Origin: Pukyongia sp.
GTDB lineage: Bacteria; Bacteroidota; Bacteroidia; Flavobacteriales; Flavobacteriaceae
DNA: 64,000 nucleotides
NCBI GenBank assembly: GCA_030148705.1
Contig: JASBSY010000014.1
Location: 1-64,000, forward strand
Direction: 5' to 3'
Positions 15,225 through 18,792 of this stretch are shown piece by piece (the stretch's first letter is position 1; the number at the start of each line of letters is the position of its first letter). The notes below the pieces were generated by a model. The model saw nothing but the letters and a program-made list of their open reading frames with translations, was not told the origin of the DNA and ran no database searches. Both the position numbers and the translations under genes were made by a program.

Positions 15225-16121
15225 TTATGTGAGCGACTCACAAAAACCGCGAATTTTATTTTTAAAAAGTTTCAGCACTTTTTTCATTGTTTCGTCCTCC
15301 CGATTTAGCTTCCGGCCGTCGATTTCGATTACGGGAGTGAGTTCTCCCATGGTTCCGGTAGCAAAAACTCCATCGGCATTTATAAACTGTGACAAGGAAA
15401 GATCGGCCTCCTGCACTGTTATACCATTGGAGGTGCAAATTTCAATAACCGTAGACCGCGTAATTCCCGGCAAACAGGCATGAGCAAAGGGAGTATAAAG
15501 TATTCCGTCTTTAACCAAAAAAAGGTTGCTGCCATTTAATTCTGCAACAAAACCTCTTTCATCCAGCATCAAACCGGCATCCTTCCCCGCTATATTGGCC
15601 TGTATCTTGGCGAGAATGTTGTTTAGAAGATTATTGTGATGAATTTTACTATCGAGAAATTGAGGTCCGTTTCTTCGCTGACTGCTGCTAATAACCTTAA
15701 TACCGGAACTATTGTCGTATACCAGTGGTTTCCATTCGGCCAGAACTATTAGGCAGGATCCGGACTGATTCAATCTGGGATCCATGCCACTGGTGATCTT
15801 TTCACCGCGAGTAAGGGTTAACCTGATATGTACATCGTCGTCCATCCCATTGGCTTCAAGGGTCTCCCGGATGGCATTTTTTATAAATTTCTTAGAAGGG
15901 ATGTCATCGAAGGCAAGAGTATGTGCAGATTCCTTTAGTCGGTTGAGATGCTTTTCCAGGCAGACAACCCCCTCCGGGTACACGCGCAACCCTTCCCACA
16001 CAGCATCTCCGCCCTGGACAGCACTGTCGAAAACCGAGATTTTTGCATCCTCTCTGGAGAACAAGCGGTCCTTAATAAATACTTTAATCGAGCGATTACG
16101 CTCATCGAAACGCTGTAGCAT
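15225..16121 (-). CDS. Class IV PLP aminotransferase (BCAT/D-amino acid type)
   Basis: This 298-residue cytosolic enzyme has the fold-type IV pattern: the N-terminal DSAVQGGDAVWEGLRVY, the PLP lysine Lys159 in LDSKIHHNN, and the cofactor-binding ELNGSNLFLV (194-203) followed by LPGITR. Family members act on branched-chain amino acids, D-alanine or aminodeoxychorismate; the substrate cannot be set from sequence. The gene starts 2 nt after a sulfotransferase-like gene and must be cotranscribed with it. Confidence 0.88.
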   Translation of the reverse strand: MLQRFDERNRSIKVFIKDRLFSREDAKISVFDSAVQGGDAVWEGLRVYPEGVVCLEKHLNRLKESAHTLAFDDIPSKKFIKNAIRETLEANGMDDDVHIRLTLTRGEKITSGMDPRLNQSGSCLIVLAEWKPLVYDNSSGIKVISSSQRRNGPQFLDSKIHHNNLLNNILAKIQANIAGKDAGLMLDERGFVAELNGSNLFLVKDGILYTPFAHACLPGITRSTVIEICTSNGITVQEADLSLSQFINADGVFATGTMGELTPVIEIDGRKLNREDETMKKVLKLFKNKIRGFCESLT

Positions 16122-16123
16122 AT

Positions 16124-16846
16124 TTAATGGTTTTTAATTGTGAATTGCTGAAGTTGTTCATAAAAAGGCAATGCTTCATCAAGCAAAGGCTTTAGATGAA
16201 CCGGAACTTGGGCTTCTGTTTTTCGCTGAAGTTGAAAGCCGGAGGTTTTGTGAACATTCGCATACCAGTGTGGCGCCCAGATTCCATCCTGTGGAATACC
16301 GCCCTTCTTCCATTTCAACATACGAGAAGAAAATGAGATATCCAGCCTTGCACATAATTCTATCAGGTAACGCTCCGGATCAACCATCAGTTCGTCGCTG
16401 TCTATCACAACAGCATGTTGGCCGTTACTTTTTAAATACTCCCATAATTGGACGGCTTTCTTGAGCCCGATATCGTTTATAGTGGGGTTGGGAATTACTT
16501 TCGAAAAGGAAGCGATCAGCCCGGCAGGATGACGAACGAGAATAACATTGGACCAATTCAGAATAAAATCGGGGGAAGCGTCCAGGTAGTGATGTGCCAT
16601 TCCCTTGACAAAGATATTTACATCCCGGGCTTTTTCATTTATAGTCTTGATGACCTGAAATTTATCGGTTTCCATGGTACGGACTATCTCATCGTGAGAT
16701 GGATGCACTATGTCCAAATCGGTATTTGCCAGGTAATGCCCATAGAAAGGTTCATCTAAAACATCGAAATCGTCCCTGCTCGCAAAGGAATACATGAGAG
16801 CTGTTGATATATTACGAGGGCCTGAAATAAGATTGATCACTTTCAC
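16124..16846 (-). CDS. Sulfotransferase-like P-loop protein
   Basis: This 240-residue protein starts at a GTG (16846). The GTG is needed because the P-loop-like ISGPRNISTAL (7-17) lies before the first ATG. The later ILVRHPAGLIASFS holds Arg105 and Ser113 in the spacing that binds the 3'-phosphate of PAPS in sulfotransferases. A conserved WAPHWY stretch lies near the C-terminus. The acceptor is unknown, and it might bind a nucleotide without transferring sulfate. The tight pairing with an aminotransferase gene (2 nt) suggests joint function; plant proteins of the BCAT-like type are thought to fuse similar parts. Confidence 0.7.
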   Translation of the reverse strand: MKVINLISGPRNISTALMYSFASRDDFDVLDEPFYGHYLANTDLDIVHPSHDEIVRTMETDKFQVIKTINEKARDVNIFVKGMAHHYLDASPDFILNWSNVILVRHPAGLIASFSKVIPNPTINDIGLKKAVQLWEYLKSNGQHAVVIDSDELMVDPERYLIELCARLDISFSSRMLKWKKGGIPQDGIWAPHWYANVHKTSGFQLQRKTEAQVPVHLKPLLDEALPFYEQLQQFTIKNH

Positions 16847-16915
16847 CCCTTAAAGTTATAGAAAAGAATTTCTCGGGAATAAAGCCCTGCCCTATTTTTC
16901 AAAATGGAGAAACTA

Positions 16916-16946
16916 AAGCAGCAGATAATAAATGCAGTGGCTGCTT
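16916..16946 (-). terminator. Possible weak terminator of glmS
   Basis: A 7-bp stem AAGCAGC/GCTGCTT (16916-16922/16940-16946) overlaps the glmS stop codon and has a 17-nt loop. The following T tract is poor, so this is uncertain. Confidence 0.3.
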
Positions 16947-18792
16947 ACTCTACAGTAACAGATTTAGCTAAATTTCTCGGCTGATCCACATTCCTGCCCA
17001 GCATAACGGCAATGTGGTAGGACAACAGCTGAAGCGGGATGGTGGTTACCAACGGACTTAAGGTTTCCGGGGTTTTCGGTACTTCCATGATATAATCTGC
17101 CAATTGCTTTACCGTGGTATCCCCTTCGGTAACAACGGCAATGATAACCCCTTGCCTTGCCCTGATCTCTTCGATATTACTAACCACCTTCTCATAGTGA
17201 TTGCTGTTCACCGCAATCACCACAACAGGCATTTGTTCATCGATAAGTGCAATTGGACCGTGTTTCATTTCGGCAGCAGGATAACCTTCGGCGTGGATGT
17301 AAGAGATCTCTTTAAGTTTTAATGCCCCTTCAAGGGCAACTGGGAAATTGTAACCCCGACCCAGGTACAGGAAGTTCTTCGCATTCTTAAAAACCTCGGC
17401 AATCTCCATGATCTTATCGTCGCTCTTCAGCGCTTCTTCCACATGTGCCGGGATTTGCTCCAACTCGCGAAGGTGTAACATAAAATCGCGTTGGGAAATT
17501 GTTCCCTTCTCCTTTGCAATCCGCAAGGCCATCATGGTAAGCACGGTAACCTGAGTGGTGAAGGCCTTGGTAGAAGCCACCCCTATTTCAGGGCCGGCGT
17601 GGGTATAGGTGCCGCTGTGCGTTTCCCTTGAAATTGTTGAACCCACCACATTACAAACCCCGTAAACGAATGCACCGTGTTGCTTGGCAAGTTTAATTGC
17701 GGCCAGGGTATCGGCAGTCTCACCACTTTGCGAGATCGCTATCACCACATCCTTTTCGCTGATAATGGGGTTTCTGTACCTGAATTCGGAAGCGTATTCC
17801 ACTTCTACGGGGATGCGGGTAAGGTCTTCGAAGATATATTCGGCCACCAGCCCGGCATGCCAGGAGGTTCCGCAGGCCACAATTATAATTCGATTGGCGT
17901 TGATGAATTTTCCAATATGGTCCTCTAGTCCGCCGAGTTTTACAATCCCCTGGTCGGCTAGTAGCCTTCCACGATAAGTGTCTTTTATTACTGAAGGTTG
18001 TTCGAAGATCTCCTTTAACATAAAGTGATCATAACCGCCTTTTTCTATCTGTTCCAGGTTTAGCTGAAGTTCCTGTATATATGGATCCACCAGCATATCG
18101 CCTTTTATCTTTCTAACTTTTACTTCCCTGCCCAGGCGGATAATAGCCATTTCCTCATCTTCGAGGTAGATGGCATTGTTGGTGAATTCGATAAACGGTG
18201 AAGCGTCACTGGCTACGAAGAATTCGTCCTCCCCTATACCTATTGCAAGCGGGCTACCCAGTTTCGCGACGACGATTTCGTCCGGTTTATTTCTGTCGAA
18301 CAGGGCAATGGCGTATGCACCGACAACCTGGTTCAATGCTATCTGAACAGCTTTGCCCAGTTTAACGTTCTCTACCTTTTGAACTTCCTCGATCAGGTTT
18401 ACCAGGACTTCTGTGTCCGTGTCAGACTTGAATTTATATCCCCTGTTCTCAAGCTCCTTTTTTATGGAGGCGTAGTTTTCAATGATTCCGTTATGGATGA
18501 TCACGAGGTTTCCACTGTTTGAATAATGAGGATGAGAGTTAATATCGTTAGGCACTCCATGCGTGGCCCATCGTGTATGACCGATCCCTAATTTTCCGTC
18601 GGTCTTTATTTCTGCTTCAACCCTGGCTTCGAGATCGGAGACTTTTCCTTTGGTTTTGGCCAGTTGTATGCCCGTACCATCATAAAGTGCAATTCCGGCA
18701 CTGTCATATCCGCGGTATTCAAGGCGTTTTAGCCCATTCATTATAATAGGGTACGCCTCTCTCTTACCAATATAACCAACTATGCCACACAT
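16945..18792 (-). CDS. glmS: Glutamine-fructose-6-phosphate aminotransferase GlmS
   Basis: This 615-residue enzyme makes glucosamine-6-phosphate for peptidoglycan and lipid A. The N-terminal Ntn-type glutaminase starts at Cys2 (MCGIVGYIG) and includes RWATHG. Two SIS sugar-isomerase domains follow, with ISQSGETADT. It ends with the conserved LAKSVTVE. Length is normal. It is the last gene of a unit after the half glycogen-synthase and DUF4270 genes; it starts 12 nt after the DUF4270 stop. No ribozyme-like leader is visible. Confidence 0.98.
   Translation of the reverse strand: MCGIVGYIGKREAYPIIMNGLKRLEYRGYDSAGIALYDGTGIQLAKTKGKVSDLEARVEAEIKTDGKLGIGHTRWATHGVPNDINSHPHYSNSGNLVIIHNGIIENYASIKKELENRGYKFKSDTDTEVLVNLIEEVQKVENVKLGKAVQIALNQVVGAYAIALFDRNKPDEIVVAKLGSPLAIGIGEDEFFVASDASPFIEFTNNAIYLEDEEMAIIRLGREVKVRKIKGDMLVDPYIQELQLNLEQIEKGGYDHFMLKEIFEQPSVIKDTYRGRLLADQGIVKLGGLEDHIGKFINANRIIIVACGTSWHAGLVAEYIFEDLTRIPVEVEYASEFRYRNPIISEKDVVIAISQSGETADTLAAIKLAKQHGAFVYGVCNVVGSTISRETHSGTYTHAGPEIGVASTKAFTTQVTVLTMMALRIAKEKGTISQRDFMLHLRELEQIPAHVEEALKSDDKIMEIAEVFKNAKNFLYLGRGYNFPVALEGALKLKEISYIHAEGYPAAEMKHGPIALIDEQMPVVVIAVNSNHYEKVVSNIEEIRARQGVIIAVVTEGDTTVKQLADYIMEVPKTPETLSPLVTTIPLQLLSYHIAVMLGRNVDQPRNLAKSVTVE

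Follow-up and report, generated by a model that had tools for sequence, protein, structure and literature searches.

A conserved gene pair of a PAPS-type sulfotransferase and a lysine-less class IV aminotransferase-fold protein in Bacteroidota, with a putative joint function

In a 64,000-nucleotide stretch of DNA from Pukyongia sp. (Flavobacteriaceae; contig JASBSY010000014.1, hereafter the window), a gene for a PAPS-type sulfotransferase (ST) is followed by a gene for a protein that has the class IV aminotransferase fold and has lost the catalytic lysine that defines it (AT-like; Table 1). The two probably form a joint module, in which the ST would be active and its partner would be something other than an ordinary transaminase. 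Co-inheritance, usual adjacency, loss of the lysine from a protein that keeps its fold and a largely intact cofactor pocket, and the presence of PAPS-making genes are established at the sequence level, and the same kind of comparison strongly supports a shared function of the pair inside the Bacteroidota. This adds a conserved two-gene module made of a sulfotransferase and an aminotransferase fold without its defining lysine, in which two separate lysine-less clades are paired with one ST family in opposite gene orders. Because the partner is built in and the cofactor is PAPS, the role of a lysine-less PLP-fold protein becomes directly testable.

Table 1. Features of the gene pair and its surroundings in the window.
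Feature	Position	Strand	Description
ST gene (Sulfotransfer_5, PAPS-type)	16124-16846	minus	ORF, 240 aa, GTG start
AT-like gene (class IV aminotransferase fold, without catalytic lysine)	15225-16121	minus	ORF, 298 aa, ATG start
Gap from ST stop to AT-like start	16122-16123	minus	2 nt; AT-like downstream of ST
ST residues 8-15, SGPRNIST	16802-16825	minus	S8, P10, R11, N12, S14 and T15 at least 90% conserved in 55 aligned STs
ST residues R105-S113, RHPAGLIAS	16508-16534	minus	R105, P107 and S113 invariant in 55 aligned STs
His161 codon of AT-like	15639-15641	minus	Aligned by HMMER with the K of IKSLNY (5mqz) and with N174 (7z79)
Lys159 codon of AT-like	15645-15647	minus	Two residues before the lost lysine; K in 102/102 H-types among the matches listed
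glmS-like gene	16945-18792	minus	Upstream of the pair
Spacing between pair and glmS-like gene	16847-16944		98 nt

The original prediction described a PAPS-type P-loop protein and a class IV aminotransferase 2 nt apart. Both open reading frames are indeed there, and they score 168.6 bits against PF19798 Sulfotransfer_5 (gathering cut-off 23.2) and 173 bits against PF01063 Aminotran_4 (cut-off 28.5), respectively. The GTG start of the window ST stands at the residue where most of its aligned relatives start, in their case with Met. The ORF family of the glmS-like neighbour is found in 21 loci but in only 8 of the 69 locus groups of the ORF clustering described below, and we therefore regard this neighbour as local synteny. 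A scan for promoters and terminators gave five promoter-like sites against 5.3 expected, which is chance level, and no terminator-like site.

The AlphaFold2 model of the ST (mean pLDDT 96.0) has as its top structural match the ST of CurM (4gbm; Z 14.7, rmsd 3.4, 211 aligned), followed by an olefin synthase (Z 14.5) and human TPST1 (Z 14.1). The 50 structural matches listed are sulfotransferases by title save Teg12 and Teg14, which we take to be sulfotransferases too, and the protein thus has the sulfotransferase fold. In a profile search only the CurM and olefin-synthase STs gave E < 0.001. These best profile and structural matches (4gbm, 4gox) are domains of polyketide synthases with 16-20% identity, whereas the window ST is a stand-alone protein. 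Both PAPS-site motifs are present with their key columns at least 90% conserved across 55 sequences: SGPRNIST, which we take to be the 5'-phosphosulfate-binding loop, and RHPAGLIAS (RHPxxxxxS), presumably the 3'-phosphate-binding motif. In four genomes of family f66 (G357, G369, G408, G432) the ST profile match is split into about residues 3-76 and 79-237, as if these STs carried an insert near residue 77.

The genome of the window has CysD, CysC and CysQ genes together, and with these PAPS-making genes the host is predicted to make PAPS. At E<=1e-3, PF01507 matches this genome only at the CysD gene, so no PAPS reductase was detected. PF13469 matches the same genome six times, with two of the matches sharing a frame, so the window ST is not the sole likely user of PAPS; PF13469 sulfotransferase-family genes (G000 contig C12 37435-39898; L170) are found some 10 kb away from CysD, CysC and CysQ. 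Across a draw of 247 Bacteroidota genomes, an APS kinase (E<=1e-30) was found in 34 of 35 genomes with an ST, G176 being the exception, versus 55 of 212 others. A search of plasmids with the ST returned five records, four from Streptomyces and one from Dolichospermum. On the Dolichospermum plasmid (L158) the next annotated gene after the ST relative is cysC, and no aminotransferase is annotated in the 12.8-kb stretch; on one Streptomyces plasmid (L159) a Sulfotransfer_5 relative, likewise lacking the AT-like partner, lies in an NRPS region near cysC and cysD. This last region also holds a penicillin-acylase-family gene, and another Streptomyces plasmid (L157) has a Sulfotransfer_5 relative within an NRPS region.

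A PAPS:2-aminoacrylate C-sulfotransferase is a long-proposed activity. By such a C-sulfonation the pair could make a sulfonate, for example cysteate, from PLP-bound aminoacrylate and PAPS, and perhaps feed sulfonate osmolytes, which we consider improbable. The PAPS-making genes and the lack of a detected PAPS reductase in the genome of the window would fit it, but nothing links the pair directly to a sulfonate. Also in its favour is a table in PMC10040529, a study of Alphaproteobacteria that reports 113 clusters above 0.8 for salt tolerance; there an 'Aminotransferase class IV' cluster and a 'Sulfotransferase' cluster, both at 0.81, stand one after the other. As this table gives names only and concerns six strains, a link between its clusters and the window pair is only suggestive.

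Of special interest is the AT-like protein. Its AlphaFold2 model (mean pLDDT 87.7) has its lowest confidence in residues 31-40 and 151-160 (block pLDDT 59 and 67), beside the site of the lost lysine, and it matches solved branched-chain aminotransferases (BCATs) with Z over 30, so the fold is retained. The nearest solved structures are 9j32 and 7z79 (Z 32.8 and 32.6, rmsd 2.3, 289 aligned, 35% identity). The latter is an aminotransferase-like protein of Variovorax paradoxus that, like the window protein, lacks the catalytic lysine, although it has Asn174 in that column where the window protein has His161; 9j32 is its N174K mutant. Our literature search found no publication on the 7z79 protein. 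To place the catalytic-lysine column, a HMMER profile built from eight AT-like relatives was aligned to the solved structures. The Schiff-base lysine is absent from the family position of the window protein, where His161 stands instead, and the Tyr of the 5mqz motif IKSLNY is Leu165. IlvE-type BCATs (5mqz, 5e25, 1i1k) have the fold, the phosphate cup, R46 and E194 in common with the AT-like protein but differ in having the Schiff-base lysine and the Tyr.

Because the catalytic lysine is absent, 'aminotransferase' names a fold here and makes no claim about activity; the label given in the original prediction stands for fold and PF01063 profile and fails at the residue on which transamination depends. 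The protein also scores below the cut-off of every NCBIfam family listed, the best score being NF006185 (235.2 versus 363), and it misses the IlvE model TIGR01122 (207.6 versus 245.55 bits). Three other PF01063 proteins are encoded in the same genome, each of them read with the lysine. On these three grounds, the lost lysine, the missed cut-offs and the lysine-bearing proteins elsewhere in the genome, we reject ordinary branched-chain amino acid transamination as the likely role.

We then compared 126 distinct relatives, drawn from the best 80 of 586 loci in genome contigs plus further genomes and plasmids; proteins with the same sequence count as one, and many of the remainder are closely related. 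Among these matches the lost-lysine column holds His in 102 (H-types), Asn in 22 (N-types) and Lys in two. All 102 H-types listed keep R46 and E194 and the phosphate cup (G219, I/V220 and T/S221, each 102/102). The N-types listed retain R46 and the GIT/VT cup and have lost the PLP N1 glutamate, E194 being T in 21 of 22 and S in the other. Some partners of the ST therefore do not depend on normal PLP chemistry. Two columns near the lost lysine also vary among the matches listed: column 159 is R in 21 N-types and K in one, and S and G, with no basic residue, in the two lysine-containing relatives, and column 165 is K in 21 of 22 N-types.

These residues bear on two other readings of the partner. 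It may be a pseudo-enzyme, a non-catalytic lysine-less subunit that binds a ligand and either presents the substrate to the ST or regulates it. The loss of the catalytic lysine in both clades, that of the N1 glutamate in the N-types listed, and the tight co-occurrence with the ST would all be expected of such a subunit, yet the retention of R46, E194 and the GIT cup in the H-types, with an invariant His161 and Lys159 in addition, goes beyond what a scaffold should require; we see this reading as possible but somewhat unlikely. Alternatively, the partner could still be a transaminase whose Schiff base has moved to another lysine, K159 in H-types and the one at column 165 in N-types. Although both lysines are nearly constant in their types among the matches listed (102/102 and 21/22), the relocated lysine would have to differ between the types, with Arg at column 159 in 21 of 22 N-types, and we know of no fold-type IV enzyme with a Schiff-base lysine shifted in this way. 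We judge it quite unlikely.

In a tree of 45 AT-like rows, H- and N-types are sister clades (support 99/99 for H+N, 100/100 for N, 94/95 for H), and the window protein belongs to the H clade. The lysine types fall outside H+N, a placement to be read with caution because long branches meet at them. The tree was built without 7z79 itself, whose assignment as an N-type comes from the HMMER alignment. In a tree of 34 STs, those of N-type partners form one clade (99/97) and those of H-type partners do not make up one separate side; as it was rooted at midpoint, this tree does not give the order of the partner states. Read most simply, these phylogenies show a single ST family that joined up with one or the other lysine-less partner, the gene order being opposite in the two cases, so the two partners would do equivalent work and neither would need the lysine. 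Purifying selection acts on the ST and AT-like genes alike, with dN/dS of 0.02-0.10 in six of eight close pairs, the other two being saturated.

The linkage of the two genes was examined in 395 Bacteroidota genomes, with an AT-like search at E<=1e-40 (64 genomes) and an ST profile at E<=1e-10 (54 genomes). Both genes were found in 53 genomes, the AT-like gene only in 11, an ST fragment only in one, and neither in 330; a smaller draw of 247, all of them from within this set, gave 34, 6, 1 and 206. The genomes in these counts are related, and Fisher values overstate their independence. Adjacent homologues, a search for which had been proposed, proved to be the rule: in 50 of the 53 genomes with both genes, no more than 300 nt lies between them on the same strand, with the order ST-AT in 24 and AT-ST in 26. 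That the two are chance or hitch-hiking neighbours with unrelated functions is extremely improbable, and we reject it in the Bacteroidota; three genomes do have the genes apart (994 nt in G275, 330 kb in G287, different contigs in G259), but the other 50 have them adjacent in both orders and even the separated copies remain in the same genome.

Similar linkage was seen at the level of loci. Among the first 60 AT-like relatives, 11 genomes have the ST, always adjoining the AT-like gene, and 86 of the 90 loci listed (the best 80 of 586 included) have it nearby on the same strand. In these sequences lysine loss tracks linkage to the ST: among the matches listed, the ST is upstream in 94 of 102 distinct H-types, downstream in 18 of 22 distinct N-types and nearby in neither of the two lysine types. 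The gap is at most 20 nt in 63 of the 94 listed H-type loci with an upstream ST, including 11 overlaps.

The 11 genomes with only the AT-like gene comprise two with lysine types (G182, G194), one with an N-type (G239) and eight of family f43. In the latter the relative is 55-62% identical to the window protein and no ST was found anywhere in the genome. Three f43 loci (L110, L111, L114) were read and all are H-type; the other five genomes (G349, G381, G388, G412, G416) are known by search alone, and in G349 the match spans just 132 residues. Since the f43 genomes and the N-type genome carry no ST, the AT-like partner can persist alone. The f43 proteins that were read have DPKIHH in place of DSKIHH. 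The only genome with an ST match and no AT-like gene has a match of 67 residues (G165:C2:970144-970344), possibly a decayed copy.

We found no third partner. When the ORFs of 100 loci were clustered, the AT family was present in 67 of the 69 locus groups and the ST family in 57, while the most frequent family after these reached 9; the clustering omitted eighteen loci used in other analyses, and L006-L015 and the short genome-search loci were not used. The next families (starch-synthase-like, glmS-like and ATP synthase beta-like) reflect local synteny of the relatives of the window, and a larger operon was rejected, as all families after AT and ST are in at most 9 of 69 groups. Fused homologues, also sought at the suggestion of the original prediction, were not found among the AT-like open frames of the 64 genomes. 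These frames are 302-438 aa long, with one 138-aa fragment, and are therefore too short for an ST-AT fusion. Two apparent fusions were rejected: in L092 a gap of -909 comes from reading through one in-frame stop, the real gap being 3 nt, and in G369 a 538-aa ST frame is out of frame with the AT-like gene. The shared, undescribed pathway that had been proposed thus gains support within the Bacteroidota from co-occurrence, adjacency in two orders and the absence of any other widely conserved neighbour, but ordinary transamination is not the activity to be expected of it.

How might such a module work? With PAPS as donor, the ST would sulfonate a small molecule resembling a hydroxy acid or an amino acid. 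Either before or after this sulfation, the same molecule would be acted on by the H-type partner, which would hold PLP or PMP with no covalent bond to a lysine and would do something other than ordinary transamination. One could imagine His161 as an acid/base on a cofactor-bound intermediate, and the sulfate as the leaving group of an elimination, a replacement or a ring closure. The nucleotide-sugar 3-dehydratases ColD, E1 and SpnQ are a published example of a lysine-to-histidine change in an aminotransferase relative. They belong to fold type I, and the AT-like protein, with its class IV profile and fold, is not a member of their family. According to PMC8987622, their catalytic lysine is replaced by a histidine that serves as both base and acid with a PMP cofactor. 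They resemble the AT-like protein in this Lys to His change at the catalytic position among aminotransferase relatives, but they differ from the window pair in aminotransferase family, in their sugar substrates and in having no sulfotransferase.

By analogy with ColD, the sulfate might be expelled with His161 as acid/base, a tentative proposal that we rate as unlikely. In its full and equally speculative form, the pair would be a fold-type IV counterpart of ColD: the ST would sulfate the hydroxyl of an amino or keto acid and the AT-like protein would expel the sulfate through His161 to form a new bond or ring, with plant 'BCAT-like' proteins possibly doing likewise in one chain. CurM and the olefin-synthase STs carry out leaving-group chemistry. 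Because tyrosylprotein sulfotransferases score nearly as well (Z 14.1 versus 14.7), the likeness to CurM says little about a leaving group.

Plant branched-chain-amino-acid aminotransferase-like proteins may, as the original prediction proposed, carry a P-loop ST-like part and an aminotransferase part in one chain, whereas the window ST and AT-like protein are separate ORFs. If the plant proteins are the fused form of the module, widely annotated plant gene names may claim an activity that these proteins do not possess. Our literature search found no description of such an ST/AT-like pair, its one trace being the table in PMC10040529, and no paper for At5g27410 or At3g05190. The one indirect hint of a fused form comes from sea cucumber, where PMC6770049 names a 'branched-chain-amino-acid aminotransferase-like protein 1' in which a residue is numbered K746, more than the length of an aminotransferase part by itself. 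That study, PMC4783884 and PMC12518340 list a BCAT-like protein by name only. PF19798 was used in PMC12506393 to gather plant sulfotransferases, in a main text free of the words 'aminotransferase' and 'branched-chain', and PMC11625862 simply lists the family.

Our whole-genome searches covered the Bacteroidota, the phylum of the window. Outside it, the pair is also present at two loci from Ignavibacteria (labelled Ignavibacteriota), with 2 nt between the genes in L087 and 2180 nt in L070. Among 37 pattern matches in viruses there was no relative of the pair. A search of plasmids with the AT-like protein gave 67 records at E<=1e-20, nine of which were read: six are N-type (L096, L097, L166-L169) and three are lysine-type (L163-L165). 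No ST was found on the six N-type plasmids. The Pseudomonadota plasmid N-types have amino-acid ABC transporters beside them in L096, L097 and L168, and TRAP transporter genes in L167 and L169.
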